This document shows positions 32,740-51,288 of a stretch of DNA of 57,323 bases, one piece after another (the stretch's first letter is position 1; each line of letters opens with the position of its first letter). Below the pieces are notes generated by a model, which was given only the letters and a program-made list of their open reading frames with translations, searched no databases and was not told where the DNA came from. The stretch lies in contig JAUNDP010000015.1 of the NCBI GenBank assembly GCA_030526005.1, positions 1 through 57,323 of the forward strand, read 5' to 3'. Source of the DNA: Eubacteriales bacterium. GTDB lineage: Bacteria > Bacillota > Clostridia > Lachnospirales > Lachnospiraceae. The position numbers were made by a program, and so were the translations under genes.

Positions 32740-34021
32740 CCTCTATACTCCTTTTATACGTTACCGTCGAGTCCAGATCACAGAATCCGACAGTAGTCTT
32801 TTTTGACAGTACCTGTATACAGCAGATGTCATACAGTCTGTGATAAACGACAAGCGCATCATCCTCATACCCTGTACATCCCAGAGAAAGCAGATGCTGT
32901 CCTCCCTGAAGAACCATCTTCTGTGAAAACGCAATTTCCACTGTCTCTCCTGCTTCTACTTTTCCTGTCTCTGTCTTCTCAATGATTGTATTTGTCCCCG
33001 CAAGTTCATTTCCCTTTAAATCTTTTATGCTGAATGCAAAGATCGGATTTTCTACCGTCTGATGAAATTTCACTCTCATCTTGATTGTAAACGGCTTCAT
33101 TTTATAAATGGTATTGGAAATCTGATTTTCATGGTCAAAAATCCCAAAACTTGTGATCGTGGCACGCTGATCGCCATAGTCTTGATAGTTTGGGTTCAGA
33201 AGCATATAGTCAAGCCAGGTTCCCTTCTGCGCTTCCAGACTGCGCTGCGGCTTTTCCTCCTCTTCTTTCTCTTCTTCCGGCTCATCCTGGCCAACCAGAA
33301 TTTTCTTATACAGATCAACCATCTCTTTTGTAGGTCCCTCTGCATACTTTCTGCCGTCATTGATGATGATGGCTCTCTCACAGTATTTCATTACACTTCC
33401 CATATCGTGCGTCACAAACAGTACCGTCTTCCCGCTGTTTTTTAAGTCTTCCATCCGTTTATAACATTTCGCCTGAAAAAAGACATCCCCGACAGACAAC
33501 GCCTCGTCAATAATCAAAATATCGGGATCGACGCTGATCGCCACGGCAAAAGCAAGGCGCGCGAACATTCCGCTGGAATACGTCTTGACCGGCTGCTTGA
33601 TAAAATCTCCGATATCTGCAAATTTCAAAATTTCCGGAAGTTTCTTTTCCATTTCTTCCTCAGAAAATCCCATCATGGTTCCGCTCAGATACGCATTCTG
33701 AATCCCGTTATATTCCGGATTAAATCCTGCTCCAAGCTCCAAAAGCGCAGAAACCTTTCCATCAATGGTCACTTCCCCTGATGTAGGCATCAAAACGCCT
33801 GTAATAATTTTCAGAATCGTTGATTTTCCTGCACCGTTCTTTCCGATAATTCCCACCATCTCTCCTTTTTTGATCTCAAATGAGACATGGTTCAGTGCAT
33901 GAAATTCTTTGTGATAACTCTTTTTATGAATACTGAGCGCTTCCTTAAATCTCAAAGTCGGTTTGTCATAAAGGCTGTATACTTTTGAGACGTCAGAAAC
34001 AGAAATTGCAATATCACTCAT
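32726..34021 (-). CDS. wzt: Glycan ABC exporter ATP-binding protein with C-terminal Wzt-type domain
   Basis: 431 residues from the ATG at 34021 (AGGAG eight bases upstream). The N-terminal ABC domain has [23 protein letters not shown] (typical of glycan exporters), [12 protein letters not shown] and [12 protein letters not shown]. After an acidic linker (EEEKEEEE) comes a beta-sandwich-like C-terminal domain (about 265-431) with [15 protein letters not shown] and [11 protein letters not shown], matching the Wzt C-terminal carbohydrate-binding family. In O9a-type systems that domain recognises the capped chain end. It pairs with the permease 16 bp upstream. Confidence 0.9.
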
Positions 34022-34037
34022 CTCGTTTTCTCCTGTC

Positions 34038-34823
34038 TTATAATACATCTGCAAAATGCGGCTTTAATCTCTGGTATACTTTCCTGCTCACAACAAACAA
34101 TAAAATCGTAAATACCCAAAAATAGATTGTAATTTTCCACCGCTCAAAAAACCAAACGTGCTCAATCATCGTGTCACGGTATCCCTGCACGATATAGAAC
34201 ATCGGATTCAGCTTAAAAATCTGTTTTAACCATCCCGGAAGCGGCATCGTCTCAAACTGCCACATAATCGGTGTCATCCAGACACCAATCTGCATGATAA
34301 TTCCAACAATCTGTGTTGTATCACGGAAAAACACGGCAATCGCCGATGTCAGATAGCAGAAAGCCAGCGACAGTAAAATCATTGCCGCTGAATAATAGAG
34401 CAACTGAATCACAATGATGCCTGGAAACAGGCCCATAATCGCATAACAGACGAGAAGCAGAACAACAAAAAAGCCATGTACAAATAAAGACGACATAATT
34501 TTTACAACCGGAAGAATCTTGATCTCAAATTTTACTTTTTTCACAAGATAATTATATTCCAGAAAGCAGTTCGTTCCATTGATCACCGATTCTGAAAAAT
34601 AGAACCATGGGATCAGACCTGCCATCAGCCAGAGCACAAATGGTATATTTTCGATATCAGAGCTGCGAAAGCCCAGCTGAAAGACGAACCAGTACAATAA
34701 AATTGTAATCAGCGGCTGCACAAAAGCCCAGAAAATGCCGAAATAAGAACCGGCATATTTTGTCCGGAAATCATTCTTTGCAAGATACAACATCAGTTTT
34801 TTATTCTTTTTCAGGGTTTCCAT
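34038..34823 (-). CDS. wzm: Glycan ABC exporter permease (Wzm/ABC-2 family), first copy
   Basis: 261 residues from the ATG at 34823, which follows AAAGGAG by 10 bases; a longer frame to 34922 lacks a ribosome site and runs into a hairpin. Six membrane helices. [26 protein letters not shown] is the ABC-2 amphipathic start, and [24 protein letters not shown] and [15 protein letters not shown] are conserved family segments. With the long Wzt it exports lipid-linked glycan. Confidence 0.92.
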
Positions 34824-34921
34824 CGACAATTTTCTCCTTTTTTCGGTATTTTTACTGTGATTTTTTCCAACCTGCTCCTCACTTTCCTTTCCTCTCGCAT
34901 CTGCTTTTTTGAACGCAGACA

Positions 34922-34943
34922 AGCAGTATCGAAAGATACTGCT
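34922..34943 (-). other. Perfect 9-bp hairpin between gtrB-like and wzm genes
   Basis: AGCAGTATC and GATACTGCT flank a four-base loop in the 157-bp gap. No U-run follows, so it is more likely an RNA stability, processing or attenuation element than a terminator. Confidence 0.55.
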
Positions 34944-36113: not shown

Positions 36114-39100
36114 TTATTTCTTGATATATTTTTTATAGAATTTTGTATCCTTGATCAGAGGAAGCATCTTCTTTTTGATACTATGCGGTATCATATCCTG
36201 AATCGTGCGGATTCCTCCTCTCACCTTCACAGCTGCCGGTTCTTTGACTGGTTCAGCCAGTTTTTCCCGAAGCCATGTAAGAGAACGTGCTCTTTCTCTC
36301 TTCATGATCTCATCGACTGTATCATAGTCAATCTCATCGAGCAGACTTTCATCGCTCATAATCTGTCCTGCATTTGGTATAAAGCGTTTTTGGAGGCCAA
36401 ACACATCTGCCAGAGACAGGAAACGGTCCAAGCCTCTCTGTTTATTATACACGCAGATAAACGGTCGGTGGAAACGGATGGCGAAGCTTGCCCCATGACA
36501 GGAATCTGTAATCAAAAATTCACAGTTTTTCAGATAGTACAGCCATTCTTCTGTCTGCACATCACTTAAAATATGATCCATATCCATTTTTTTCTTATTT
36601 TTTTCAAAATTTCCCGGTATGCCGTCTAAAATATGAATCAGTTTCAGATTCTTTTTCTTTGCCACATATTGAAGCGCCTGCCGTATTTCCGGTGTCGGGT
36701 CCAGTACATAGGAAAGCAGAAATTTCTCTTTTTCCTGACGGGCAGAATCTGCGATCAATTCTTCAAAGACAGAATCTTCCGGCAGAAAGACCGGATCTAA
36801 TACCTGAATTCCATCCACGCCAAATTCTTTCTTTAATACGGTGACTGCACTTCTTTCACGCACAGAAATACCGGTAAATCTGCCCAGCAGACTGGAAACT
36901 TCTCCTCTCTTCTCTGGCGGTGTAAAAGAACGGCTGTGTCCAAAGGATGCCGCATAGGAAATCAGACGTTTCCCTTTTTCTGCGAAATCGAAATAGTAGC
37001 TGTTTCCGCACCACTGGTTGACGCCATAGTTCCAAACCTGATCCGATCCAATCACAAATGTGTCGCAGCTCTGATTCAGTTTTCCGATTTCTTTTAAAGG
37101 ATACATCGGACTGATTGCCTTATATCTCTCATATGCAAATCTTCTGGAATGCAGAAGCGGATGCGGTTTATCCTTTTCAGAAATCCGCGGCTTTTCAATC
37201 ATCAGCACAGAATATCCCATGGACTCAATCGCACGGCACAGGGAATAATATGTCATAACGCTTCCATAGTTTGCTCCCGGCCATACGCCATAGATACCGA
37301 CATCATAATGCTCAGAAGACGCATCGTTGACTGCTTTCTCCATTGTGGTCTGCTGAACCAGTTCCATAAAACGGTCTCTCTTTGGATTGTATGTCTTAAA
37401 TGGTTTTGCAAATGGCTGTCCATGCGTCAGAATATATTCAAATTTTGCAGGCTCGCATAAGTTCAGACGCACTTTGATGGTCTTTAGCATTTCATCTGCT
37501 TTTTTGTTATTTACAACAAGAATGGACGTTCCTTTTCCATCGGTGTAATCCGGATTGTATTTCTGAATGCCCCAGAAATCAGCCAGCGTCATATCTCCCT
37601 GTCTGGAAAGACGGGAATATTTACAGATCTGACAGTGCGGACGCACAGACAGACACGGCAGAAATGCCCGATAGAATAAATCTTTGTCTCTTGTCTTTCG
37701 ATAAACCTTTCCATCTGCATACTTTACCGTCATCTCTGTGGACCATCCAAAGTAATCTTTATCACGGAATCCAACGTGGGTAATCTCATGACCGCCGTGA
37801 ACTTCTTTCAAATATTTTTGAAATACCATCGGGGATGGTCCGCCGTGACACATCAGGTCAATCGTAAATAAATTGTCATAGTCGCGTCCCAGATATCCAT
37901 ACAGTCCTGCCACCTGACACGGGCATCCGCAGAACAGCGCCGGTTTTCCTGATTCCAGTACCTTTTTGATCTCACGATACGTCCTCTTTGACGTACTTTG
38001 CAGGTATTTTGAACCGCGTAGCTTTGCAAGTCCTTCTTTTTCATAGACAACGGTATGTTCCAGATGGAACTGCTCATCAAATGCAGCTCCGCACACAGCT
38101 CCGCCCTTTTCCAGAATATCTTCTGCCACAAGGGAGAAGATTCCCCCTGAGGAGCTGACGTCTCTGACTGCTTCTTCTGTATATGCCGCATAACATTTCG
38201 GAATCTGCCAGTTTACGTCTCTCTCATGCGCTGCCGGGCATGCCTTCAGACACTTGCCGCAGTGAATACATTTTTCCTGATCGATAACCGGATAGAAAAA
38301 TCCTTCCTGATCCTGTACCATTGTGATGGCGTCGACCGGACAGCTGTTCTCGCACGCTCCGCAGCCGCAGCACTGCCGTTTTGCGATCGCACGGATATCA
38401 TTTGGCTGATTCTCCTCTTTTTTCAGCGACTGTCTCAGCCACTGCATGGAAAACTCACGTCTTTCTTTTATGATTCGATCGATTTTATCAAAATCCATCG
38501 GCTGAAGAATTTCTTCATTTCCAAGCAGTTGTTCTGTCTTTTTCACATACCGTTTCTCCAGACCAAATGTACGGACTAATTCCTGGAAACGGACGATTCC
38601 TCTTTTGTCATTTCCGATCACAGCCATCGGTTTGTGGAACAACAGGGAGAAGTTTGTACCCTGGCAGGAATCTGTCAGTACAAACTCACAATTTTTCATA
38701 TAATACAGCCATTCTTCCACGGAGGCATCTTCTATAACGGTTCCGACAGAATCTTCTATCACTTTTTTCGTCTTCTTCCATCCATTTCCGTTTCCGTCTG
38801 ACAGCAGGATCACTTTCCATCCCGTTTTTTCTTTGATCTCAGACAGCACCTCATTTAACTGCGGCGTCGGATCTAAAATGTAAGAGACCATGAATTTTTC
38901 TGTCTCTTTCTTTTTCACCTTGCGGATCTGTTCCTCATAGATGGCAGAGTCAGCAAGGAATACCGGGTCCAGTACAACCGGTCCGTCAAGATGAAATTCA
39001 TCTTTTAAAACTTTTGCTCCGCCCTGTTCTCTCATGGCAATGTGGTCAAACTGTTTCATCAATTTGATGATATGACCGTATTTTGAAGGCGGAATAAATG

Positions 39101-41444
39101 ATTTTACATGGGCAAAAGAGGCGCCATAAGCCACTTTTTTCCGTTCTTCTTTTACAAAATCAAAATAGAATCCAAGACCATATCCCTTGGCCACACCATA
39201 ATTCCAGACCTGATTTGATCCGAGCAGAAATGTCTCGCAGTGATCGTTTAGCTTACTCTGATTTACATAGTCATATACAGGGCTGATTGCCGTATAGTTC
39301 TGATATGCAAATCTTCTGGATGGCGTATAGGATTCGTTTCTCTGCACATACCGCTCTTTTCCCTTTTCGATCATCAAAACGTCATATCCCATAGACTCCA
39401 CGGTGCGGCAAAGTGCATAATAGGTCAGAATGCTTCCATAGTTGTTGCTCATCCATGGTCCATAGATACCGACATCATATTTTTTTTCTTTTCCAAGCGT
39501 CAAGGACTCTTTTAATGTCCTTTCAGAAATCAAATTTTTAAAATGGTTTCGATCTGTTTCCGGAAGATTTCCATCGCTGCTTTCTTTACAGATCCTATAT
39601 TCTTCTCTCGCAAAATCTCCCCATTTTTCCGCTGAAATCTCTTCTTTGCACTGCGCAAAAAGCTGTTCGCCTCCTGTGCCGTTTGTAATAAGCCAGTTCT
39701 GTTCTGACAGCGTCTCTCCCGGCAAAATCCATCCCAGATTTCGCATCTCATCTCTTCGCATCTCATAGGATGCTCTGCCATGAACTGCCAGATTTGCGTC
39801 TGCGATCTTGAAAAAGAGATCGTCTTCTCTCTTTCTCTCATATTTTTTCCCGTCCTGATATAGGACATAAATCGCTTTCTCATCATCCGGTGAAAAGACA
39901 ATCTCGGCGATCTCTTTTCTGCCATGAACTTCTTTCAGATACCGTTTCCAGATTTCTGACAGCATATTTTCTTTTTCCAATATCGTCACAACAGTCAGAT
40001 TCTCATACGTTTTTCCTAAGTTCTGATACAGTTTCTTCACATGAGACGGTGTTCCAAATAATAATACGTTCTCTTTCTTTTCCAGACAATCTCTGATCTG
40101 TTCCCAGTCAAATTCCGTATCTGCCAGATATGCCGGAATCCTCAGCGCTTCGTCAAGCGTACCACGCTTCTCCCATTTCTGGATTTTTACTGACCAGTCC
40201 GGCTCAAACTGCGGAAGATAGATCGTTGCCCCCTGCTCCATCTCTTTTTCAATCGCCGCTTTTTTCAGCTGGTTCAGGTTCTGAATCGTATATCCGGTAC
40301 GTCGCGTCTGCTTGCTCTGTCCGATTTTTTCAGGTGTCTCTTTTTTATAGGACAGCGCATTTTTCAGCCATTTCCAGGAACGTTCTCTCTCGGAATCCAT
40401 GATTTTCTGAATCTTATCATAGTCCATCGGAGCCAGCAGATGTTCCTCTTCCATAATTTTCTTCGGGTCTAAAATATAGCGGTCTTCAATCTGAAATAAT
40501 TTTGTCAGGCTTTCAAAACGGTCCAGTCCGCGTCCTCTATTTCCGATACAGACAAACGGTCTTTTAAAAACGAGCGCAAAACTTGCGCCATGGCAGGAGT
40601 CCGTGATGACAAACTGACTGTGCTTTAAATAGTACAGCCAATCCTGCGTCTCTAAATTTTCCACAACATTTTCCAGATTTAATTTTTCTTTATTGCTCTC
40701 AAATTTTGCCTGGATTCCATCCAGCATATTAATGAGTTTTAAATTCAGTTTTTTTGCCGCATACTGAAGCGCTTCTCTGATTTCCGGTGTCGGGTCTAAA
40801 ATATAGGAGACAAGATACTTTTCCTCTTCTCTGTGGGAAGATTCCTCTGCAACCTCATCAAAAATCTTTGGGTCTGCCAGAAATACAGGGTCCAGCACCC
40901 GCACGGCGTCCACGCCGAATTCTTTTTTTAAGACAGAAACTGCCCCTGTCTCACGCACAGACAGGAAATCAAATCTTCGGAACAGAGATTCAATCTCTTT
41001 TGCTTCGTCATAAGGGGTAAAGGAAACTGCATGGCCAAATGAAGAAGCATATGAAATCAGACGTTTGTCATCATCTGCAAAATGGAGATAGAAACTCTTT
41101 CCAAATCCTCTGCTGATCCCATAATTCCAGATTTGATCGCATCCCATCACAAACGTATCGCAGCATTCGTTCAGCTTTTCCAGATCGTAATAGGAAAAAT
41201 CTTTCGTGATCGCCTCATAATGACGCTCTGCAAATTTATCGGAATGAGTGAAAGGACGCTCCTCTTTTCCTTCCTGCTTCATCTCCGGACTGATCAGCAC
41301 AGCGGAGAGTCCCAGGGACGTAATACAGCGGTACAGTGCATAGTAGGTAGCAATTCCGCCATAATTTTCTCCCTTCCACACGCCATAGATTGCCGCATCA
41401 AACTTTTCTTGCTCTACATCTTTTGGTGTGATAAATCTACTCAT
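36114..41444 (-). CDS. Giant fusion: three pyruvyl-transferase domains with one intact and one decayed FrhB domain
   Basis: 1776 residues. Order: PPT1 (about 15-365); cysteine-free FrhB-like remnant (about 385-650); PPT2 (about 653-1005); two 4Fe-4S motifs CCGCGACENSCP and CIHCGKCLKACP (about 1025-1067); FrhB domain with CGCPCQVAGL and CQICKYS (about 1080-1370); PPT3 (about 1378-1740). PPT enzymes add a pyruvyl group from phosphoenolpyruvate to a sugar; PPT1 and PPT3 keep SCHGASFA and the DQ(I/V)WNYG motif. PPT2 has SCQGTNFS (H to Q at 928) and GSNQVWNYG (D to N at 744). The remnant keeps the FrhB frame (YLKEVHG, LFF) but not its cysteines. AAAGGA precedes the ATG. It lies 12 bp after glf. 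The substrate is unknown, and the redox role of FrhB here is undefined. Confidence 0.9.
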   Translation of the reverse strand: MSRFITPKDVEQEKFDAAIYGVWKGENYGGIATYYALYRCITSLGLSAVLISPEMKQEGKEERPFTHSDKFAERHYEAITKDFSYYDLEKLNECCDTFVMGCDQIWNYGISRGFGKSFYLHFADDDKRLISYASSFGHAVSFTPYDEAKEIESLFRRFDFLSVRETGAVSVLKKEFGVDAVRVLDPVFLADPKIFDEVAEESSHREEEKYLVSYILDPTPEIREALQYAAKKLNLKLINMLDGIQAKFESNKEKLNLENVVENLETQDWLYYLKHSQFVITDSCHGASFALVFKRPFVCIGNRGRGLDRFESLTKLFQIEDRYILDPKKIMEEEHLLAPMDYDKIQKIMDSERERSWKWLKNALSYKKETPEKIGQSKQTRRTGYTIQNLNQLKKAAIEKEMEQGATIYLPQFEPDWSVKIQKWEKRGTLDEALRIPAYLADTEFDWEQIRDCLEKKENVLLFGTPSHVKKLYQNLGKTYENLTVVTILEKENMLSEIWKRYLKEVHGRKEIAEIVFSPDDEKAIYVLYQDGKKYERKREDDLFFKIADANLAVHGRASYEMRRDEMRNLGWILPGETLSEQNWLITNGTGGEQLFAQCKEEISAEKWGDFAREEYRICKESSDGNLPETDRNHFKNLISERTLKESLTLGKEKKYDVGIYGPWMSNNYGSILTYYALCRTVESMGYDVLMIEKGKERYVQRNESYTPSRRFAYQNYTAISPVYDYVNQSKLNDHCETFLLGSNQVWNYGVAKGYGLGFYFDFVKEERKKVAYGASFAHVKSFIPPSKYGHIIKLMKQFDHIAMREQGGAKVLKDEFHLDGPVVLDPVFLADSAIYEEQIRKVKKKETEKFMVSYILDPTPQLNEVLSEIKEKTGWKVILLSDGNGNGWKKTKKVIEDSVGTVIEDASVEEWLYYMKNCEFVLTDSCQGTNFSLLFHKPMAVIGNDKRGIVRFQELVRTFGLEKRYVKKTEQLLGNEEILQPMDFDKIDRIIKERREFSMQWLRQSLKKEENQPNDIRAIAKRQCCGCGACENSCPVDAITMVQDQEGFFYPVIDQEKCIHCGKCLKACPAAHERDVNWQIPKCYAAYTEEAVRDVSSSGGIFSLVAEDILEKGGAVCGAAFDEQFHLEHTVVYEKEGLAKLRGSKYLQSTSKRTYREIKKVLESGKPALFCGCPCQVAGLYGYLGRDYDNLFTIDLMCHGGPSPMVFQKYLKEVHGGHEITHVGFRDKDYFGWSTEMTVKYADGKVYRKTRDKDLFYRAFLPCLSVRPHCQICKYSRLSRQGDMTLADFWGIQKYNPDYTDGKGTSILVVNNKKADEMLKTIKVRLNLCEPAKFEYILTHGQPFAKPFKTYNPKRDRFMELVQQTTMEKAVNDASSEHYDVGIYGVWPGANYGSVMTYYSLCRAIESMGYSVLMIEKPRISEKDKPHPLLHSRRFAYERYKAISPMYPLKEIGKLNQSCDTFVIGSDQVWNYGVNQWCGNSYYFDFAEKGKRLISYAASFGHSRSFTPPEKRGEVSSLLGRFTGISVRERSAVTVLKKEFGVDGIQVLDPVFLPEDSVFEELIADSARQEKEKFLLSYVLDPTPEIRQALQYVAKKKNLKLIHILDGIPGNFEKNKKKMDMDHILSDVQTEEWLYYLKNCEFLITDSCHGASFAIRFHRPFICVYNKQRGLDRFLSLADVFGLQKRFIPNAGQIMSDESLLDEIDYDTVDEIMKRERARSLTWLREKLAEPVKEPAAVKVRGGIRTIQDMIPHSIKKKMLPLIKDTKFYKKYIKK

Positions 41445-41456: not shown

Positions 41457-42557
41457 CTACTTTAATTCTTTATTCACAAGTTCCAGCGCAGCCTCTATTA
41501 CCTTGTCCATATCATAATATTTATAGTTTCCAAGTCTTCCTCCAAAAATGACATTGCTCTCTTTGTCAGCCAGTTCTCTGTATTTTTCAAACAGACTGTT
41601 GTTTTTCTCATCATTGATCGGATAATATGGCTCGATTCCCGGCTTCCACTCAGAAGAATATTCTCTTGAAATAACAGTTGTCTCCTGTTTTCCAAATTCA
41701 AAATGCTTATGCTCGATAATTCTTGTATAAGGAACTTCTCTGTCTGTATAGTTTACAACCGCATTTCCCTGATAGTTTTCGCAGTCTAATTCTTCTGTCT
41801 CAAAGCGCACCGTACGGTACTGCAGAGTACCAAGCTGATAGTGATAAAATTCATCAATCATACCGGTAAAAATCGTTTTTTCTGCCACATCCTGATGGTT
41901 TTCTATAAACTCAAAATAGTCCGTATCCAGTTTCACATCAATTCCGTCCAGCATCTTTTCTACAATTTTTGTATATCCGCCCATCGGGATTCCCTGATAG
42001 CGGTCATTAAAATAGTTGTTGTCATAAGTAAAGCGCAGCGGCAGTCGTTTAATGATAAATGCCGGCAGTTCTGTACATGGTCTGCCCCACTGTTTTTCTG
42101 TATATCCCTTGACCAGTTTTTCATATACATCTCTTCCGACGAGAGACAGCGCCTGCTCCTCCAGATTTTTTGGCTCTGTGATATTTAATTCTGCAATCTG
42201 CTCTGCAATCTTTGCCTTTGCTTCGTCCGGTGTGCGGATTCCCCACAGTTTGCTGAATGTATTCATGTTAAATGGCATATTGTACAATTCATCTTTATAG
42301 ACTGCAATCGGGGAATTGATATAGTTGTTAAATTCTGCAAACTGATTGATGTAGTCCCACACTTCTTTATTGCTGGTGTGGAAAATATGCGCGCCATAGA
42401 GGTGAACATTGATTCCGTTTCTGTTTTCACAGTAGATATTTCCTCCGATGTGGCTGCGTTTGTCAATCACAAGACATTTTTTTCCTCTTTTTTTCGCTTC
42501 ATATGCGAATACACTTCCGAACAGTCCGGCTCCGACTATTAAATAATCATATCTCAT
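41457..42557 (-). CDS. glf: UDP-galactopyranose mutase
   Basis: 366 residues, the usual length. FAD-binding start YDYLIVGAGLFGSVFAYEA, then the family segments GGNIYCENRNGINVHLYGAHIFHT, FNNYINSPIAVYKDELYNMPFN, YTEKQWGRPCTELP, IKRLPLRFTYDNNYFNDRYQGIPMGGY (split by normal variation) and GGRLGNYKYYDMDKVI. It interconverts UDP-galactopyranose and UDP-galactofuranose and needs reduced FAD. AGGAGG precedes the ATG. It sits between the two FrhB-PPT genes and feeds the two galactofuranosyltransferases upstream in the same unit. Confidence 0.96.
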   Translation of the reverse strand: MRYDYLIVGAGLFGSVFAYEAKKRGKKCLVIDKRSHIGGNIYCENRNGINVHLYGAHIFHTSNKEVWDYINQFAEFNNYINSPIAVYKDELYNMPFNMNTFSKLWGIRTPDEAKAKIAEQIAELNITEPKNLEEQALSLVGRDVYEKLVKGYTEKQWGRPCTELPAFIIKRLPLRFTYDNNYFNDRYQGIPMGGYTKIVEKMLDGIDVKLDTDYFEFIENHQDVAEKTIFTGMIDEFYHYQLGTLQYRTVRFETEELDCENYQGNAVVNYTDREVPYTRIIEHKHFEFGKQETTVISREYSSEWKPGIEPYYPINDEKNNSLFEKYRELADKESNVIFGGRLGNYKYYDMDKVIEAALELVNKELK

Positions 42558-42570: not shown

Positions 42571-44901
42571 TCACCTTTTAATGATCTTTCTTTTTATTTT
42601 GTGCAGCGCCCTTTTCACAGGTTTATGCACTCTTTTCACCTGCTGTTTGATCTCCTCCTGTTTCGGAATAACAACATGATATGCCTGATCTGGTTTTGGC
42701 GTTATTCTGCTGTCTGTCTTTTCGTACGCAGTGAGATAGTCAACTGATTTCGGCAGAAACAGTGCGTCGTGCAGCCATTTTCTGCTTCGTTTTCTCTCTT
42801 CATTTAAAATTCTTCTGCTTTGCGTATAATCCATCTGCTGCAATAACTCCCGCCGCCGTTCCAGATCCGTCGGATTCATCAGCATCCGATCTTTCATCTG
42901 GAACAAATCCAGCAGAGAATTAAAACGGGACATTCCCCTCTGTGGATTTCCAAAGCATACGAAATCTTTCTGGAACAAAATCGCAAAACTTGCGCCATGG
43001 CAGGAATCTGTAATCACAAAACTGCTGTTTTTCAGATAAAAAATCCAGTCTTGCACTTCCAGATTCTCCACGACATTGTCAAGTCCCAGATTGTCACGGT
43101 TTCTTTCAAAATTCCACGGCATACCGTCTACCATGTTGATTACCTTTTTATTTAATGTTCTGGATGCAAATAAAATAGCTTCTCTCTTTTCCGGAGTCGG
43201 GTCCAGAATGTATGTCGCAATATAATCCTTTTCTTTCTTTCGCTTCGACTCCGCTGCAATCTCGTCAAAAATTCCCGGATGAACAGCAAAGACAGGATCC
43301 AGCACATGCTCTGCTTTCAGGCCGAATGTTTCATTGACAATCCGGACGCCGTCCGCTTCTCTTAAAGAGATCGCATCAAAGCGTTCCAGCAGTCCTTTCG
43401 TCGTTCCGATCTCCACCACAGGGGCGTGGAACGTCTCATGTCCAAATGAGGCTGCATATGCGATTTTCTTTTTCTCATCCTCCACAAAGTCAAAGAAGAA
43501 ACTGCGTCCAAAATTTGAAGAAATCCCATAATTCCATACCTGATCCGATCCAATCACAAAACTGTCGCACTGTCTGTTCAGCTCTTTCAACGCCCATATC
43601 GGCATGGAAGGCGCAATATCACGGTAATGGCTAAGTGAAAATCTTCTGGCATGGTTATCTCCCAATTCGGGATCGTTCTCCATTACTTTCGGTTTGTCGA
43701 TCATGAGAACAGATAATCCAAATGACTGGATAAGGCGGTAAAGAGAATAATAAGTCATAAGACTTCCATAGTTGCATCCAAACCATACCCCCATAATTCC
43801 CACATCATATTTTTTTTCAGAAGCATAGACGTATGCTTTTTGAAGCGATGTCTTGGATGCCAGCTCATAGAAACGTTCTCTTTCAGGATTTTTCATCGCT
43901 TGATTCTTCAGAAGTTTCGTCTCTTCTTTTGCATACTCCAAAGGCACTTCTTCTATTTTTTCCAATTTCTCTTTCACATCTTCAAACAGTTTTTTTCCCT
44001 TTTCTGTATTGATAAATACAGCCGAAACACCGGCATGATTTGCAAATGTTTCATCGTACTGTTCAATTCCCCAAAAATCAGCCAGCGTCAGGTCTGATCC
44101 TCTTTTCCATGTGCGGTAGGAACAATTTTCACAGCATTTTCGAAGATCCAGTCTCTCAAAATAAGCTTTCAGCAAAATATCCTGATCTTTTGAACGGTGG
44201 TAAACGCTTCCGTCTTCAAACTCTGCTGCCATGGCTGAAAACCATCCGGATACCTTTTTACTGCGGAAAGAAATCTTTTTGATTCTCTTTCCTCCAAGGA
44301 TTTCTTTTTTATATTTTTCAAAAATACAAGGAGAGCTGACACCCATGCAGTCAAAATCAACCGTAATCAGGTATTCTCTTTCCTTTGTACTGTTTAAAAG
44401 TCCTGCGGTCTGGCACGGCGTTCCGCAAAATAATACCGTCCTTTTCTGCTTCAGATAGCTGCGAATCGTCTCATAGATATGTTTCGTATCACTCTGCACA
44501 TATTTTAATCCCTGAAGTTTCCAGATGTCTTCTTCTTTCTCAATCATCTGGTGTTCTGTCTGTAATCGTTCATTCCATCCGCATCCGCAAACAACGCCTC
44601 CGTCTTGTATTACTTTTTTGGCGAGGAGAGGAAAAATTCCTCCTGATGCACTGTCTTCACATGTCTTTTCCGGTGCATATGCTGCATAGAGTTGGATCGG
44701 GTCCGACTGGGGACTTAATTTCTGCAAAGCTGGACAAATACTAAGGCATTTTCCACATTCCTTGCACAGATTTTCATTCACATCGGGATAATAAAATCCT
44801 GTTCCATCCGATTTCATCATAATTGCTTTTTCTGCACAGCTGTCATAGCAGCTTCCGCATCCGGTACATTCATTTTCTTTTAACTGCCTGATATTCTTCA
44901 T
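42571..44901 (-). CDS. FrhB-type iron-sulfur domain fused to a pyruvyl-transferase domain
   Basis: 776 residues from the ATG at 44901 (GAGG seven bases upstream). Two 4Fe-4S motifs CTGCGSCYDSC and CKECGKCLSICP (about 12-55), FrhB domain with CGTPCQTAGL and CCENCSYRTWKRGSDLTLADFWGI (about 65-370), PPT domain (about 375-715) with NYGSLMTYYSL, GSDQVWNYG and DSCHGASFA, then a basic tail (KPVKRALHKIKRKIIKR). This is the complete form of the unit that is repeated, partly decayed, in the giant protein beyond glf. FrhB domains are named for F420-dependent enzymes, but F420 use is not expected in this organism type; electron transfer in a sugar-modification step is only inferred. Confidence 0.9.
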   Translation of the reverse strand: MKNIRQLKENECTGCGSCYDSCAEKAIMMKSDGTGFYYPDVNENLCKECGKCLSICPALQKLSPQSDPIQLYAAYAPEKTCEDSASGGIFPLLAKKVIQDGGVVCGCGWNERLQTEHQMIEKEEDIWKLQGLKYVQSDTKHIYETIRSYLKQKRTVLFCGTPCQTAGLLNSTKEREYLITVDFDCMGVSSPCIFEKYKKEILGGKRIKKISFRSKKVSGWFSAMAAEFEDGSVYHRSKDQDILLKAYFERLDLRKCCENCSYRTWKRGSDLTLADFWGIEQYDETFANHAGVSAVFINTEKGKKLFEDVKEKLEKIEEVPLEYAKEETKLLKNQAMKNPERERFYELASKTSLQKAYVYASEKKYDVGIMGVWFGCNYGSLMTYYSLYRLIQSFGLSVLMIDKPKVMENDPELGDNHARRFSLSHYRDIAPSMPIWALKELNRQCDSFVIGSDQVWNYGISSNFGRSFFFDFVEDEKKKIAYAASFGHETFHAPVVEIGTTKGLLERFDAISLREADGVRIVNETFGLKAEHVLDPVFAVHPGIFDEIAAESKRKKEKDYIATYILDPTPEKREAILFASRTLNKKVINMVDGMPWNFERNRDNLGLDNVVENLEVQDWIFYLKNSSFVITDSCHGASFAILFQKDFVCFGNPQRGMSRFNSLLDLFQMKDRMLMNPTDLERRRELLQQMDYTQSRRILNEERKRSRKWLHDALFLPKSVDYLTAYEKTDSRITPKPDQAYHVVIPKQEEIKQQVKRVHKPVKRALHKIKRKIIKR

Positions 44902-44942
44902 CGCATTTCCTCTTTTATCCGATCTGATAAGCAGATAAATGG

Positions 44943-44981
44943 AAGTCCCCTGCCCATTCATCTTGCGGAAGCGGGGGACTT
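44943..44981 (-). other. GC-rich stem-loop between the galactofuranosyltransferase and FrhB-PPT genes
   Basis: AAGTCCCC and GGGGACTT form a perfect 8-bp stem that extends by about three more pairs (T-G, G-C, C-G). It fills most of the 96-bp gap. No U-run follows, so it is probably an attenuating or mRNA-stabilising hairpin. Confidence 0.6.
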
Positions 44982-44997: not shown

Positions 44998-46812
44998 CTA
45001 GATTCCTAAATATTTTTTCCAAAATTCATAGGAAGTCATATATGCTCTTTTGTCCTGATATTTCTTTCTGATATTTTTCTGACGCTGCTCAATCTCTTTA
45101 AATGTCTTTCTGTATCGTTTCAGCAGCGCTTTTCCACGCTTCTTATCAAGCGTACGGATTGCCCCTGTCTGCATATGCGGATTTACTGCCAGCAGTTTCT
45201 TTCTCAGATACTGTCTGTGCGGTGCGTAGAACCAGTCATATGCAATCACAACAGGTTCCTTTTTCAGCAGAAAATCTGGGCAGAACAGACCATTGAATGT
45301 CAGACGGTAAATCAATTTTTCCATTCTTCCTCTTGGCCCGTCACCATATACGGCATCGAGATCAACTGGAATACTCTTAAATTTAGAAAGAGGCTCAAAC
45401 TTTTCATTCTTTGCTCCTTTTTCTTTTAAGATACGCTCTCCGTCTGGTTTTTCAAAAAATGCCGGTCCTTTCAGATAGTCGTCCACTGCATCCATCAAAA
45501 GCTCCGCGCTGTTATAGTTAAATCTGAGCAGCTCGACTCTCGTAAATTTTCTCATTCTCTCTGCGAAGTCAATATTCTGACAGATACCGCTTGCAGCCTG
45601 AATTGCGAGGCTATTTCTATGTACCTGATATAATTCCATCGCAGCATTAAATTTCAATGTAAAGCCCATATGCCATACACAGATACTGTTCATTGTGATA
45701 AATTTTGCATGATTTCTCAGACTGTATTCTACATCGTCCCCTCTCACAAACAGAGGCAGCGGCAGATTGTCCAGTCTTGCAGTTGTTGTCGGAATACAGC
45801 AATACCACCAGCCGGCATACTGATTTTTCCGTTTTGGCCATGCTTCTTCATTTCGCACGACAGCGTCGAGACGCTGCATATCAAGGCGATGTTTCAGCGG
45901 TCCATAGGAACCGTCGTCATGTACATATCCGATATCTTCATGCTGTTCATTCATGCGCTCATAGTACAGCATTGCTCCGCTGATAAAATGTTCTTTATAT
46001 TCTTCTTTTAAAAGTGTCAGCAGTCGATATGTTCTTTTCAGACTTTCCGGCAGAATAATCACATCATCATCCATCAGAAGAACGTGCGTTGCCGGTTTTT
46101 CCTGCAGATTTGCCTCGATAATTCCGCGTGAAAATCCACCTGATCCTCCTGTATTTGGATTTGGATGAATCCATAAATGATCACATTCCAATTCTTCTTT
46201 GTTCAGCGTTCTTCCATTGTCAATGACATGTACATAGAAATTTTCTGCCATCTCATCTTCGGAATTCAAAATTTCATCTTTTAACAGCTGAATATTTGGC
46301 AAAATAAAGTCTTCTTTTTTGAAAGTCGTTGTTGCAAGCGCCAGACGCACTTCTCTTTTTTCTTCCTCGGGGATTTCTGTCGCATAATATCCGCTGTACA
46401 GACAGCAGTTCTTATATCCTACAATCTGAAATCCTACAATCGTCACCTGATCGCTCACTTGTGGAATGTCCAAAATCAGTTCCTTTTTCTCATCCAGATC
46501 AAAACTCTGTTCGGACAGTACCTCTTCCTGGAAAGGTCCTCTGTTCATGTAATATCCGCTGATTCGGACTTTAAAGCTTCCTTTCATTGTGAGGCAAATC
46601 TTCACATTATCAATTTTCGTATACTTCATCCATTTTTTTACGGAAAAAGAATTAAAGTAAGCCGCGAAATCAACTGCATGATATTCGGCAATTCCCCAAT
46701 ATTCTTTGTCCGCACTCTGTTCCATTCCTTCGCCGTAATAAAACATTCTCGTATAAGGAATAAACCGCTTGTGCGCTGGAAATATAATGTTCTGAAGTTT
46801 TGTCAATTTCAT
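44998..46812 (-). CDS. GlfT2-like galactofuranosyltransferase, copy 1
   Basis: 604 residues from the ATG at 46812 (GAGAGG about 11 bases upstream). Layout of mycobacterial GlfT2: N-terminal beta-sandwich (about 1-150), GT-A domain with ATTTFKKEDFILPNI, VIDNGRT, NPNTGGSGGFSRG, the DXD motif LLMDDDVIIL and the acceptor-side FVRGDDVEYSLR, then a helical C-terminal domain. GlfT2 polymerises galactofuranose from UDP-Galf. It is in one unit with glf, which supports the assignment. Confidence 0.88.
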   Translation of the reverse strand: MKLTKLQNIIFPAHKRFIPYTRMFYYGEGMEQSADKEYWGIAEYHAVDFAAYFNSFSVKKWMKYTKIDNVKICLTMKGSFKVRISGYYMNRGPFQEEVLSEQSFDLDEKKELILDIPQVSDQVTIVGFQIVGYKNCCLYSGYYATEIPEEEKREVRLALATTTFKKEDFILPNIQLLKDEILNSEDEMAENFYVHVIDNGRTLNKEELECDHLWIHPNPNTGGSGGFSRGIIEANLQEKPATHVLLMDDDVIILPESLKRTYRLLTLLKEEYKEHFISGAMLYYERMNEQHEDIGYVHDDGSYGPLKHRLDMQRLDAVVRNEEAWPKRKNQYAGWWYCCIPTTTARLDNLPLPLFVRGDDVEYSLRNHAKFITMNSICVWHMGFTLKFNAAMELYQVHRNSLAIQAASGICQNIDFAERMRKFTRVELLRFNYNSAELLMDAVDDYLKGPAFFEKPDGERILKEKGAKNEKFEPLSKFKSIPVDLDAVYGDGPRGRMEKLIYRLTFNGLFCPDFLLKKEPVVIAYDWFYAPHRQYLRKKLLAVNPHMQTGAIRTLDKKRGKALLKRYRKTFKEIEQRQKNIRKKYQDKRAYMTSYEFWKKYLGI

Positions 46813-46840
46813 CCTTCCACTTTCCTCTCTTCTCATTTTT

Positions 46841-48667
46841 TTATTTTTTTATATCTTTTTGATTATCCTGCAAATTCAAGTAATGGTTCCAGAAGTTCTC
46901 TTCCGTCAATTCCCTGTAGCGAGTTCTGTACTGTTCTTTTGCTGTCTCATAATGGCGGTCAATATAGCGCATCACCTTAAAAAGCTTTCTGTAACATTCA
47001 AAAAACTGCCGCAGACTTCTCTTTACTGCTACGCCATTACCATTCTGATCCATAAATACAATCTTATCTGCCCTGTATAGGCGATAGACGTTGTCATATG
47101 GCGTAACAACCAGCGCTTTTCCTCGTTTTGCAGGCAAAAAATATCCGTTTAAAGTTAAGATTTGAAGCATTTTTCTCTGATGACTGATACTCTCTTCTTT
47201 TTGAATCTTTGCGGACTGATCCGGATACAGATCTTTCTCCTCCAGCCCCCAATGACCTTTTAGTTCCTGCCGCGGCTTGGCCTTATAATTGAGTGCAGAG
47301 ACTTTCTGGTGCAGAAGCTGTCCATCCTGTTGTTCCAGCCAGTCAATTCCTTTGCAGAAATCAATGGCTCCTCTTAAATTTAAATCCACATATTGATAGC
47401 GATATCTGGCGACATTTCCGCTGACCCATTTAAAAAGAATCTGCTTAAACTGACGTTTTCCATACTTTTGATCGTGAATGGCATTTACAATCGCCAGGTT
47501 TCGGATATCATAATATTCCAGCGTTCCCGGCATCTTATTTTCAAATGCTTCATGCCACACGCAAATGCCATTCAGAAACAAAAATCCAATTCCTGTCCGT
47601 ATTCCATACTCAATATCATCCCGATGAATAAAAATCGGAAGAGGAAGCTTTTCTTTTTCAATCATTCTGACAGGAACGCAACTGTACCACCATCCCGTAT
47701 ATTCTACTTTCTCATGTTCCAGCTCATTTTTCAGTACAAGCATCTTATCGCGCATATCCCAGTTATGATGAAGCGCATAGATATTGCCGCTGTTCCACTG
47801 CGCCCCACATTCGTATTGAATATACGGCGTATCGAGTCTCATCAGCGCACCTCCGATTGTATAGTCGAGGTATCGCTCTTTTAACAGTGTCAGCAGCACA
47901 TAAGTACGCTCAATCGAAGCCGGCAAAATCACGGCGTCATCATCCATCATCACAACATGCGTCACTTTGTCATGGCACTCCATTATTCCCCTTGTAAATC
48001 CTCCGACGCCTCCGGCATTTTTATTCTTAAATACAAAAATTCCCGGAATCTGACGGATTTCCTGAGGGAGAGACTGCCCGTTGTCCGCAATATAGACAGA
48101 GATTTTTCCATACAGTTCTGAATCTGGATTCTCCAAAAAGGCTTTCCGCAAAATTTCCATATTCCGCTCCACATATCTCTCTCTTTTGAATGTACAGATG
48201 TTCAGTCCCAAATGAACGCGTCTTCTGTGTCCGTCTTTTGTGACATATGCGCCTCCATACAGGATTCCCGTTCCTCCGATACTTCTGCATGAGAAATAGA
48301 AAATCCCCTCTTTCTCCAACGCGCCAAATTCCAATATTCTTTCTTCTTTTTTCTCTGCCTCTATGATCTGCTCTGAAATCTTTTTTGTGTGGCATACGCC
48401 CTGGTGCAAAAATTTGTGATATAAGACAATACGGAACTTTCCCTGAAGAATAATCTTCAGAGAAACTTCCGTGGCTGTCGTGTATTTCTTCCATTTTCCT
48501 GTCGAAAAACTGTTCAGATACGTATCAAATGTAACTTTCTGCTCATCCTGCAAAAAAATTTCTCCATTTGTCAGTCCATATTCCAGTTTTTCCTTGCTGT
48601 CATAATATAATGCTCTCTTTTCTTTTTCCATTTTAGAAGGAAAAAGCAGTTTCTGCAGTTCTATCAT
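46841..48667 (-). CDS. GlfT2-like galactofuranosyltransferase, copy 2
   Basis: 608 residues from the ATG at 48667 (AGGGTGAG upstream). Same architecture as copy 1: beta-sandwich start, NICTFKRERYVERN, IADNGQSL, NKNAGGVGGFTRG, MMDDDAVILP, FIHRDDIEYGIR and the C-terminal helices. Sequence divergence between the two copies is large, so they probably make different galactofuranose linkages rather than being a recent duplicate. Lies 28 bp upstream of copy 1. Confidence 0.88.
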   Translation of the reverse strand: MIELQKLLFPSKMEKEKRALYYDSKEKLEYGLTNGEIFLQDEQKVTFDTYLNSFSTGKWKKYTTATEVSLKIILQGKFRIVLYHKFLHQGVCHTKKISEQIIEAEKKEERILEFGALEKEGIFYFSCRSIGGTGILYGGAYVTKDGHRRRVHLGLNICTFKRERYVERNMEILRKAFLENPDSELYGKISVYIADNGQSLPQEIRQIPGIFVFKNKNAGGVGGFTRGIMECHDKVTHVVMMDDDAVILPASIERTYVLLTLLKERYLDYTIGGALMRLDTPYIQYECGAQWNSGNIYALHHNWDMRDKMLVLKNELEHEKVEYTGWWYSCVPVRMIEKEKLPLPIFIHRDDIEYGIRTGIGFLFLNGICVWHEAFENKMPGTLEYYDIRNLAIVNAIHDQKYGKRQFKQILFKWVSGNVARYRYQYVDLNLRGAIDFCKGIDWLEQQDGQLLHQKVSALNYKAKPRQELKGHWGLEEKDLYPDQSAKIQKEESISHQRKMLQILTLNGYFLPAKRGKALVVTPYDNVYRLYRADKIVFMDQNGNGVAVKRSLRQFFECYRKLFKVMRYIDRHYETAKEQYRTRYRELTEENFWNHYLNLQDNQKDIKK

Positions 48668-48677
48668 CTCTCTCACC

Positions 48678-49430
48678 CTACTTCTTATCCTGTTCCAGCG
48701 CTTCCATATAGGCATCGCAGACGGTATTTACATCTCCTGTCATCATCTGCTGTCCTTTGTTGATCCATATTGCATGATCACACAGTTTCTTTACGGAATC
48801 AATATTGTGTGAAACATATAAAAGTGTCGTGCCTCCGCTGAGCATTTGCGTCATACGCTGATTGCATTTCTTTCTAAAACGTGCATCTCCTACCGCCAGA
48901 ATCTCATCCACCACCAGAATATCCGGGTTGACCATTGTGGCCACTGAGAATCCGAGTCTCGCTTTCATACCGGAGGAGAAGTTTTTGATTGGAGAGTCCA
49001 AAAACTGATGCAGATCTGCAAATTCTACAATCTCATCAAAATGCTCATCCATAAATTTTTTGGAATGTCCTAAAACCGTTCCGTTCAGATAGATATTTTC
49101 TCTCGCTGTCAGATTCATATCGAATCCTGCTCCAAGTTCGATCAGAGGCGCAATCTCCCCGCGTACAATTACTTCCCCTTTGTATGGTTTCATAATTCCG
49201 CTGATTGCCTTAAGCAGTGTGGACTTCCCGGAACCATTTGTTCCGATCAGTCCCCACGCTTCTCCTTTTTTTATTTTCAGATTGATATCCTTCAGTGCAA
49301 GAAATTCCTGAAACATCAATTCTTTTTTCACCAGTTTAACAAAATATTCTTTCAGATTATCTACTTTCTCACTTGCCAGATTGAAGCGGATCGTAAGATC
49401 ATTTACTTCGATGATATACTTTTCTTCCAT
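48678..49430 (-). CDS. Glycan ABC exporter ATP-binding protein, short form
   Basis: 250 residues, the ABC domain only: GTNGSGKST, LIELGAGFDMNLTARENI, FSSGMKARLGFS and ILVVDEILAVGD. It lacks the C-terminal glycan-binding domain of the Wzt at 32.7 kb and so resembles TagH/RfbE-type exporters that do not need end-cap recognition. It pairs with the permease 17 bp upstream. Confidence 0.9.
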   Translation of the reverse strand: MEEKYIIEVNDLTIRFNLASEKVDNLKEYFVKLVKKELMFQEFLALKDINLKIKKGEAWGLIGTNGSGKSTLLKAISGIMKPYKGEVIVRGEIAPLIELGAGFDMNLTARENIYLNGTVLGHSKKFMDEHFDEIVEFADLHQFLDSPIKNFSSGMKARLGFSVATMVNPDILVVDEILAVGDARFRKKCNQRMTQMLSGGTTLLYVSHNIDSVKKLCDHAIWINKGQQMMTGDVNTVCDAYMEALEQDKK

Positions 49431-49447
49431 ATTTCCACCATTTCTCT

Positions 49448-50236
49448 TTAGATATATAAGATAAAACGATCCTGTGACCGTTTAAATGTCCAGGTGCCTA
49501 TTCCCAGCATCACAAATGCAATAATCCATCCCATGATAAACACTCTAGGCTCTGTCATACGTCCATCATAGATAAAATCTCGGAACTGCTGAATATAATA
49601 ATATAACGGGTTAAATGTTTTGATAAAGTTCTGAAGCTGTACCGGCAGAGAAGCAAGCGGATAGAAGATTGCAGATAAATACATCCACGCTGTCGTAACT
49701 GCTTTATAAATATACTGCATATCTCTGAAAAATACATTTGCCTGTGCCAGAAACAGTCCTAATCCCATACAGAAAATATAAATCTGAATCACTACAAGAG
49801 GGAATAAGAAAAAATACGGTGTAAATTTTGCTCTTGTCACAATCATCACAATCAAAAGAGCGCCAAGAGAAAGTACAAAGTCTACAAGACAGCTTGTCAC
49901 TTTTGCAAACGTAAAAATATACTTTGGTACATACGTCTTTTTAATCAGCGACGCATTGGCTATAATTGATCTCATTGCTGCATTTGTAGAAGTTGTCATA
50001 AATTCAAATAAGGTCCGTCCCGTCAAAAGATAGACCGGAAAGTTCTCAATGTGTTTGTCAAACATCGTTGAAAATACAATCGTCATGACGATCATAATCA
50101 ATAACGGGTTCAAAACACTCCAGACATATCCAAGGAAACTTCTTCTGTATTTCAATTTTAAGTCTCTTGATACAAGCTGAATGACAAGATCCTTATATTT
50201 ATAAAATGTCTGAATTTCTGATTTTAATGCATCCAT
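49448..50236 (-). CDS. Glycan ABC exporter permease (ABC-2 family), second copy
   Basis: 262 residues from the ATG at 50236 (AAAGGTGG eight bases upstream); a GTG at 50248 is the alternative. Six membrane helices with LVSRDLKLKYRRSFLGYVWSVLNPLL, ANVFFRDMQYIYKAVTTAWMYLSAIFYP and FNPLYYYIQQFRDF. It overlaps the preceding glycosyltransferase by 13 bases. Together with the short ATPase it forms a second glycan exporter of the locus. Confidence 0.92.
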   Translation of the reverse strand: MDALKSEIQTFYKYKDLVIQLVSRDLKLKYRRSFLGYVWSVLNPLLIMIVMTIVFSTMFDKHIENFPVYLLTGRTLFEFMTTSTNAAMRSIIANASLIKKTYVPKYIFTFAKVTSCLVDFVLSLGALLIVMIVTRAKFTPYFFLFPLVVIQIYIFCMGLGLFLAQANVFFRDMQYIYKAVTTAWMYLSAIFYPLASLPVQLQNFIKTFNPLYYYIQQFRDFIYDGRMTEPRVFIMGWIIAFVMLGIGTWTFKRSQDRFILYI

Positions 50237-51243
50237 CTGCTTTTCCACCTTTCTGAAATGTCAAATACTGTTTTTGCCGCAGGATAAAGATAAAAAGAAG
50301 AGGCACGCAGCATCTGGACCGCTTTATTCGTCACTTTTCCGTAAATCATCGGGTATTCTTTTTTCACCATTCGGTCAAACTGCATCATCTTTTTTCTTTG
50401 TTCGCGGCTGATCGGATAACTTAAAAATATTTTAAACCGGCTCGTCACCATGCGCGCCAGAATATTTTCTATATAATTCAGATAATACTGCGGAATATCA
50501 TGATTTTTTTGTTCTGTATAATAATGTAAAAGTCTCGTCAAAACACGGTCAAAATTTTCTTCATGCCGCTGCATTCCTTTTAAATTCATACTCTGTGTCG
50601 GAAGTCCAATCCGATAACGGTATACATATTCATCCAGACACGTCACCGTCTCTATATAAGGAATCGGAAACAGAACAAATTCCATATCCACATAGTAACA
50701 GTGTTCATCCAGTTTCGGCATATATTTTCTGAGCAGCTCTGTTTTAAATGTCACTGCGTGCATCTTAAAATAGGCATCGCTTCCAATTTCTGAAAATCTG
50801 TACTCCCGACCATATTCCACATCCTGAAATGGATGTTTGCGTTCTGCCTTCACCCGATGCGTCCCGTCTGCCAGCCAGTAATAATTTGTCACCACAAGAT
50901 CCGACTCGGTTGTTGTCAGACATTCCATCAGATTCTCAAACGGTATTCGCTTTACATAATCGTCAGAATCTACCACTTTAAAGTATTTTCCCCTGGCTTC
51001 CTGCAGCCCACAGTTGATGGTAGACCCGTGACCTCCGTTTTCTTTGTGAATCACTCGAAAAATCTCCGGCATCTCTCTTGCAAATTTTTCTGCAATCTCT
51101 GAAGAATGATCGGTTGACCCATCGTCTACAATCAGAATATCCAGTTTCTCCTTCCATTTTGGGAGTGCAAAGGAGGACAAACATTCTTCCAGATATTTTT
51201 CTACATTATAAGTAGGAACTACTACTGTCAATATTTTTTCCAT
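50224..51243 (-). CDS. GT2 glycosyltransferase
   Basis: 339 residues from the ATG at 51243 (GGAG five bases upstream). GT-A domain with LTVVVPTYNVEKYLEECL, ILIVDDGSTDHSSEIA, ENGGHGSTINCGL and the DXD motif VVDSDDYV; VDMEFVLFPIPY on the acceptor side. It is the first gene after the 51.3-kb promoter, before the second exporter. The sugar is not predictable. Confidence 0.85.
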   Translation of the reverse strand: MEKILTVVVPTYNVEKYLEECLSSFALPKWKEKLDILIVDDGSTDHSSEIAEKFAREMPEIFRVIHKENGGHGSTINCGLQEARGKYFKVVDSDDYVKRIPFENLMECLTTTESDLVVTNYYWLADGTHRVKAERKHPFQDVEYGREYRFSEIGSDAYFKMHAVTFKTELLRKYMPKLDEHCYYVDMEFVLFPIPYIETVTCLDEYVYRYRIGLPTQSMNLKGMQRHEENFDRVLTRLLHYYTEQKNHDIPQYYLNYIENILARMVTSRFKIFLSYPISREQRKKMMQFDRMVKKEYPMIYGKVTNKAVQMLRASSFYLYPAAKTVFDISERWKSRWMH

Positions 51244-51288
51244 AATCGCTCCATTCAAAAATCATTTGCTTCCCTTTTTATTCGCCCT

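Follow-up and report, generated by a model that had tools for sequence, protein, structure and literature searches.

A 57,323-nucleotide contig of a Eubacteriales bacterium from the family Lachnospiraceae (JAUNDP010000015.1 in assembly GCA_030526005.1; the window) carries one very long open reading frame (ORF) in which polysaccharide pyruvyl transferase (PPT) domains alternate with FrhB-type domains, raising the questions of whether so large a fusion is real and what such a protein could do. An original prediction, made from the sequence alone, had placed three PPT domains, two FrhB domains and two 4Fe-4S motifs in a single frame at 36114-41444 without an internal stop. This is borne out on the minus strand, a detail that the prediction did not give: the frame starts with ATG and runs stop-free for 1776 amino acids (frame 1 of the plus strand has many stops over the same interval), a purine-rich agaaagga lies six bases upstream of the ATG, and the ORF begins 12 bases past the end of the UDP-galactopyranose mutase (UGM) gene. 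The suggested HMM search against Pfam found all of the expected families in the giant protein, with three stretches of PS_pyruv_trans (PF04230; 290.5 bits against a cut-off of 25.3, whole-protein E 2.5e-86), one FrhB_FdhB_N, one FrhB_FdhB_C and Fer4 domains, while the first FrhB segment was recovered by local profiles only.

The five-domain fusion is real. A full-length protein is found in all three genomes of the genus sample (completeness 95-97%), counting the window's own, with lengths of 1776, 1787 and 1792 amino acids and 72-73% identity, and the adjoining genes are syntenic in both genus relatives (L050, L051) as far as those loci reach. The window is one whole contig of a 68-contig draft assembly, a circumstance that could favour an assembly or frameshift artefact. 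Because the whole protein occurs in every genus genome, because its intragenic DNA repeats are just 68-77% identical over stretches of 59-646 bases, and because each PPT position forms its own clade, we consider the chance of an artefact negligible and rule out an assembly fusion.

Local profiles, built first from the window's domains and then from fetched relatives, were used to set the domain limits (Table 1), and the state of each domain was assessed at columns that 93% or more of the relatives conserve: 17 columns for PPT (96 His-bearing relatives) and, by the same criterion, 31 for FrhB (86 relatives). No PPT column is lost from PPT1, PPT3 or the PPT of a neighbouring 796-residue FrhB-PPT protein, and three of 17 are lost from PPT2, including the His of the phosphoenolpyruvate (PEP) site. 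FrhB-2 loses none of its 31 columns and scores as a member of FrhB_FdhB in both families (PF04422, 29.9 bits, cut-off 22; PF04432, 66 bits, cut-off 23.3), accompanied by the 4Fe-4S motifs; its conserved cysteines 1176, 1199, 1271 and 1274 are invariant. In each of the three orthologues FrhB-1 has lost 22 of the 31, and it gives no Pfam report in the giant; it is detected weakly by local profiles at about residues 394-558 (52-77 bits across the orthologues), and BLAST aligns residues 157-734 of the 796-residue neighbour with residues 441-1007 of the giant at 33%. This segment had been described as lacking cysteines, which is not correct, as region 378-620 holds Cys 453, 599 and 619; none of them occupies a conserved FrhB Cys column, and the region has no ferredoxin motif. 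Judged by these columns, the middle FrhB-1/PPT2 pair has degenerated in every one of the three orthologues.

Conservation is distributed unevenly along the chain. Identity between orthologues is 41-43% for FrhB-1, 85-89% for FrhB-2 (the best-conserved large domain), 74-78% for PPT1, 73-76% for PPT2 and 78-81% for PPT3, so that PPT2 is nearly as well conserved as the intact PPTs despite the loss of its PEP-site His. As dS was saturated (mostly 1.5-2.8, with two values of 3.8 and 25 and several incalculable), dN and identity were used rather than ratios. Its residues suggest that PPT2 is likely inactive as a transferase, which weakens the notion of an enzyme with three working PPTs. We stop at likely because CsaB is inactive as H308A or H308R but retains part of its activity as H308S or H308K (PMC10435577). 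A degenerate PPT fused to an intact FrhB recurs in other loci (L081, L087, L067/L068, L026/L198), where the next gene encodes an intact PPT. In a PPT-domain tree, the sequences of the three genomes cluster by position, with one clade each for the first (support 1.0), second (1.0) and third (0.999); the second and third are sisters (0.848), the first groups with the leading PPT of the L081 and L087 three-domain proteins (0.868), and all eleven come together at 0.772. This topology suggests a probable duplication of an FrhB-PPT unit in an ancestor whose protein was already PPT-FrhB-PPT. The giant is a clear example of enzyme modules that were fused, decayed in part and are still kept by selection.

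We propose, with a probability of roughly 55%, that the giant is a fused enzyme for modifying a surface polysaccharide of the galactofuranose type that leaves the cell through an ABC exporter. The C3 unit of PEP would be moved onto a hydroxyl group of a sugar by PPT1 and PPT3. The intact 2x[4Fe-4S]-FrhB, with a bound flavin and with electrons from ferredoxin or a like donor rather than F420, would reduce the transferred unit, such that the product would be a 1-carboxyethyl (lactyl) ether in place of the usual pyruvate ketal. The middle pair, having lost its Fe-S and PEP-site residues, would probably serve structurally as a tether, domain interface or binding site. This logic follows that of UDP-MurNAc synthesis, in which MurA transfers enolpyruvyl from PEP and MurB reduces it with a flavin to the lactyl ether, although the protein families are unrelated and the Mur substrate is a UDP-sugar. 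The large modification enzyme that had been predicted, possibly with a chemistry needing electrons, is supported in outline by the glycan locus and the coupling of FrhB with PPT, a need for electrons being probable, but not as three working PPTs with two Fe-S domains, the middle pair being degenerate.

The same decay could be read differently, with the giant being mostly a scaffold that organises a multi-enzyme complex while the 796-residue FrhB-PPT protein performs the chemistry: two of its five modules have decayed in each of the three orthologues, and the related loci listed above also fuse degenerate PPTs to FrhB. Yet PPT1, FrhB-2 and PPT3 keep every conserved column tested and FrhB-2 is 85-89% identical, from which catalysis seems to be still under selection, and we regard a mainly scaffolding role as improbable.

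The proposal that reductase and transferase act together draws on how regularly their genes are coupled. Across 79 sampled family genomes, excluding the window's, 37 FrhB_C matches exceed the Pfam cut-off; a same-strand PPT lies on the same contig within 6 kb of 29 of these and within 2 kb of 21, and no opposite-strand PPT was found within 6 kb of any of the 37. Conversely, the same genomes hold 76 PPTs above cut-off, 30 of them with FrhB within 6 kb. Pseudobutyrivibrio and Bacteroides plasmids likewise pair FrhB with PPT. Hominisplanchenecus murintestinalis (L057/L193) has separate genes for these functions at the position syntenic with the window, in the order glycosyltransferase (GT), ABC permease, ABC ATPase, GlfT2-like, PPT (405 aa), UGM, FrhB (402 aa) and PPT (403 aa). 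In L081 the order is GT, ABC permease, ABC ATPase, GlfT2-like, PPT-FrhB-PPT (last PPT degenerate), PPT and UGM, and the short contig L198 reads PPT (cut), UGM, FrhB-PPT (PPT degenerate) and PPT. Unfused and half-fused versions thus occupy comparable places in other genomes. The original prediction would have been undone by a fusion confined to one assembly with separate genes in close relatives; relatives with separate genes do exist, in Hominisplanchenecus, but all three genus genomes carry the fusion. UGM matches occur in 24 of 79 fetched FrhB-PPT loci and GlfT2-like matches in 39 of 79 (phmmer E 1e-15), counts that have no background rate behind them, and the latter may include other family-2 glycosyltransferases. 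Taken across fusion, gene neighbourhood and synteny, the sequence data present the FrhB-PPT coupling as systematic.

Fusion of the two domains is itself common, which qualifies the earlier remark that pyruvyl transferases are normally single-domain proteins of about 350 residues. Among 115 distinct complete ORFs with PPT or FrhB in the fetched loci and the window, retrieved by queries of the FrhB/PPT kind that favour fusions, 78 are FrhB-PPT, 13 PPT alone, 8 PPT-FrhB-PPT, 7 FrhB alone, 5 PPT-FrhB and 3 five-domain, and one is a PPT-FrhB in which the PPT was hit twice (Pfam shows just one); 10 further ORFs cut by contig ends stand outside this count. FrhB and PPT are fused in both orders and also occur as separate adjoining genes. 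Strong matches were found in 23 of 397 family, 16 of 392 order and 9 of 391 class genomes, in overlapping samples that each count the window genome, with the two genus relatives in the family sample. When long open frames were opened in these samples and the best 80 of 565 relatives were inspected, no five-domain form appeared outside the genus, although a distant one could be missed with two candidates scored per genome and strict E-values. As far as searched, then, the form appears peculiar to the genus. Unnamed FrhB-PPT fusions and gene pairs of gut bacteria (PF04432 with PF04230) share the giant's domains and the order 2x4Fe4S-FrhB-PPT, and those outside the genus reach 54% identity to its C-terminal half among the best 80 of 565 relatives, but they have two domains or separate genes. 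Other long glycan-locus fusions include a GT2-GT2-FrhB-PPT protein of 1449 aa (L066:12326-16675) and a PPT-FrhB-hexapeptide-SDR-SDR protein of 1998 aa (L076:10869-16865 and L192). The giant's architecture was not described in the literature searched, largely open-access papers; what is new here is the five-domain form, its decayed core and the graded series of unfused relatives. Parts of the giant also match fifteen phage records (MT837642, MT835622 and others), of which 14 are small unannotated 'Bacteriophage sp.' entries of faecal or similar origin and one is an Enterococcus phage; some of these may be mislabelled bacterial DNA.

We then consider whether the PPTs resemble enzymes that form ketals. 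According to PMC10629545, glycan pyruvyltransferases have in common the motifs NxGD, R-x-x-x-(S/T) and H, and in Pvg1p the D106A variant is almost inactive and R337 contacts PEP; D106 would correspond to the Asp of NxGD. In our PPT alignment, whose rows were fetched as relatives of the window's unit, the His is kept in 102 of 114 rows, but the NxGD Asp is present in none of the 101 readable His-bearing rows (PPT1 reads NYGG, PPT2 and PPT3 NYGS). At the place of the PEP-site Arg two residues before the His (CsaB R306, Pvg1p R337), all 102 His-bearing rows have Ser. The Arg of R-x-x-x-(S/T) is universal (102/102), with Ser/Thr at +4 in only 8 of 102; PPT1 and PPT3 have Ala here and PPT2 Gly. PPT1 and PPT3 have both the other PEP-site Arg (CsaB R148) and the His (H308), and PPT2 keeps the Arg with Gln in place of His. 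WcaK, the colanic-acid pyruvyl transferase of K-12, reads N-R-G-D, R-E-S-V-S and R-L-H. The giant's PPTs therefore share the PS_pyruv_trans family and the Asn, Gly, Arg and His with CsaB, WbbZ, Pvg1p and WcaK, and differ in missing the NxGD Asp and a PEP-site Arg. A CsaB assignment was rejected (TIGR03609, 41.2 bits against a cut-off of 213.1), and a Pvg1p or WbbZ type found no backing by sequence: against solved structures the PPT profile A4 matched no pyruvyltransferase, giving weak epimerase and other matches, and WcaK likewise matched none. Catalytic residues were for this reason mapped by motif and by hhalign with WcaK, for which the overall probability was only 5.8. Sorted by motif, 26 Lachnospiraceae PPTs include three with NxGD and R-L-H, two of them with no FrhB on the contig (L151, L158) and one with a weak FrhB piece 2.7 kb away (L166); the FrhB-linked PPTs of L163 and L164 have Thr at the Arg place. 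The signature supports a reaction other than ketal formation, without proving it, since the rows were pre-selected and the signature extends beyond FrhB linkage.

It could nonetheless be that the PPTs make ordinary pyruvate ketals and that FrhB performs a redox step of its own on a different sugar within the same repeat (e.g. reduction of a keto or enol sugar), the fusion only tethering the two. PS_pyruv_trans members of known product make ketals (PMC10435577, PMC10629545), and some contigs have PPTs of this broad motif class with no FrhB found beside them. Klebsiella K12 has a galactofuranose 5,6-pyruvate ketal (PMC4616057), and the window encodes a UGM. The missing Asp (0/101) and Arg (0/102) speak against such a division of labour, which we hold to be unlikely, though the most serious competitor to a lactyl ether.

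A cluster of E. coli O124/O164 bears on the same choice. Its O-antigen genes run from galF to gnd as wzx, FrhB, PPT, GT2, GT32, wzy, GT2, glf and GT2. The adjacency of FrhB and PPT, the presence of glf and the type of PPT (local PPT profile E 3.5e-86, 17 of 17 columns kept) are as in the window, but the genes are separate and the FrhB is distant; WcaK, by comparison, gives E 0.11 with the same profile and has no FrhB beside it in its cluster. We take O124 to be identical to S. dysenteriae 3 and to bear 4-O-[(R)-1-carboxyethyl]-glucose; O164 is not known to carry a lactyl group. If this O124 structure holds, the gene content of the cluster points by elimination to FrhB and PPT as makers of the ether, and the absence of a ketal from that structure would argue against ketal formation by this pair. 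PMC10609480 states a 1-carboxyethyl ether for S. dysenteriae, the type not being named. The O124/O164 FrhB-PPT pair has a DNA match in 8 of 5426 E. coli genomes, over the whole length in five, where the PPT is annotated as two coding sequences in three genomes and as one in two. A K. aerogenes plasmid also has a locus with FrhB and PPT, and that pair has no DNA match among the 5426 genomes.

Elsewhere a different reductase takes the place of FrhB. In two E. coli plasmid loci (L130:20826-22988 and L135:9001-10302, the latter with a PPT annotated as incomplete) a nitroreductase gene directly precedes a PPT of the giant's type, occupying the position held by FrhB in other clusters, and the E. coli BDSF8-3 plasmid has both a partial nitroreductase with PPT and an FrhB with PPT. 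The Klebsiella capsules K22, K37 and K66 presumably bear lactyl ethers. In a Klebsiella survey, a PPT gene is present in four of 46 non-pyruvylated types (K8, K22, K37 and K66), and its 79 loci include two nitroreductase genes and one F420-hydrogenase gene (PMC4616057). A flavin-type reductase gene thus stands beside a giant-type PPT in the surface-glycan loci of the window, L057, the O124 cluster and the plasmids, and we infer that this adjacency is the defining feature of a pair for lactyl-ether (glucolactilic acid) synthesis. The FrhB-PPT pair may already be known in principle, to go by the title of a 2006 paper on S. boydii 17 listed in the bibliography of PMC5643014.

As to the electron supply, the 2x[4Fe-4S]-FrhB part resembles FpoF, F420-dependent sulfite reductase and similar proteins, sharing by sequence the Fer4-FrhB module of PDB chains 7np8, 8rja and 9tn7. 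Classification as FpoF was rejected, with 34.6 bits against a curated cut-off of 475. Neither CofE nor CofC, families of F420 synthesis, was found in the three genus genomes, making an F420-dependent enzyme unlikely. The CofE control was positive in three archaea of 14 genomes and the CofC control in 6 of 14 (4 over cut-off); E. coli and Lactococcus are among those six, so CofC is the looser test. We infer ferredoxin as the donor and a bound flavin in FrhB-2. Alternatively FrhB might be a redox regulator of PPT, an oxygen-sensitive switch that leaves the product unchanged, given Fe-S clusters in a presumed anaerobe. We think this very improbable, as those FrhB relatives whose function is known act as reductases or as subunits of hydrogenases and a nitroreductase precedes PPT in the E. 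coli plasmid loci.

Several observations weigh against reduction to a lactyl ether. Eight of the 37 FrhB matches in the family genomes have no PPT inside 6 kb. Uniformity in the residue alignment is partly due to selection of the rows, the signature without Asp and with S-F-H is also seen in PPTs without FrhB on the contig (L139, L143, L155), and six of the 26 PPTs (L147, L156, L159, L161, L162, L165) are of other motif types though FrhB lies within 6 kb. The O124 FrhB is distant, at 21% identity and 58 bits, and the two CxxCxxCxxxC motifs are missing from it. The PPT gene of Klebsiella K8 is left unexplained.

A broader and more tentative claim, to which we give somewhat less than an even chance, is that FrhB-linked PPTs constitute a widespread second route to lactyl ethers, a ferredoxin-driven analogue of MurA/MurB, which here would take the form of a five-module chain with working transferases and one working reductase around a dead structural core. 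If the pair does make lactyl ethers, sequence would allow many surface-glycan structures to be predicted, and one would expect a stable ether rather than an acid-labile ketal. In NMR spectra an ether-linked lactyl group has signals at about delta H 1.4 and delta C2 78 ppm (PMC9912281), against about 100 or 110 ppm for a ketal carbon. The names 'coenzyme F420 hydrogenase' for FrhB and 'polysaccharide pyruvyl transferase' for PPT are both probably misleading in such glycan loci.

Table 1. Coordinates of the giant protein, its modules and neighbouring genes in the window (aa, residues of the giant; asterisk, degenerate module).
Feature	Coordinates	Strand	Basis or remarks
Giant 1776-aa protein, PPT1-FrhB*-PPT2*-[2x4Fe4S]FrhB-PPT3	36114..41444	-	ORF reading, Pfam, local profiles, conserved columns
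PPT1 (aa 15-358)	40371..41402	-	17/17 family-conserved columns kept; His285
FrhB-1, degenerate FrhB-like segment (aa about 394-620)	39585..40265	-	No ferredoxin motif; 22/31 conserved columns lost in all three orthologues
PPT2, degenerate (aa 656-1001)	38442..39479	-	Asp to Asn744, Gly to Ala778, His to Gln928, identical in all three orthologues
Two ferredoxin-type 4Fe-4S motifs, CxxCxxCxxxC (from aa 1025 and 1059)	38220..38390	-	Pfam, motif
FrhB-2 (aa 1075-1370)	37335..38222	-	31/31 conserved columns kept
PPT3 (aa 1380-1723)	36276..37307	-	17/17 family-conserved columns kept; His1650
UDP-galactopyranose mutase (UGM)	41457..42557	-	TIGR00031 425.5 bits, cut-off 303.75
796-aa two-domain relative, 2x4Fe4S-FrhB-PPT	42571..44961	-	17/17 PPT columns kept
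GlfT2-like galactofuranosyltransferase, weak	44998..46836	-	Glft2_N 27.1 bits (cut-off 26.1); GlfT2_domain3 25.8, below cut-off 27
Second GlfT2-like galactofuranosyltransferase	46841..48715	-	Glft2_N 41.5 bits (cut-off 26.1)
ABC exporter: ATPase 48678-49430, permease 49448-50248	48678..50248	-	Same order in L057 and L081
GT2 glycosyltransferase, conserved beside exporter	50224..51258	-	Window annotation, locus comparison

The second FrhB-PPT fusion of the window, the 796-residue protein, is one gene away from the giant, across the UGM gene. GlfT2-like enzymes, of which the window encodes two candidates, are known best from mycobacterial galactan synthesis. Besides the exporter in Table 1, a second ABC exporter gene pair is recognised at 32726-34922 from sequence similarity alone. 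Genes for bacterial sugar transferases likewise occur twice, at 20391-21815 and 52089-53513; this doubling suggests two surface glycans or a composite locus. An ORF with a DUF6077 match (53702-54661) overlaps a long ORF in another frame without a Pfam match (54460-55491), and the two are possibly a frameshifted membrane protein.

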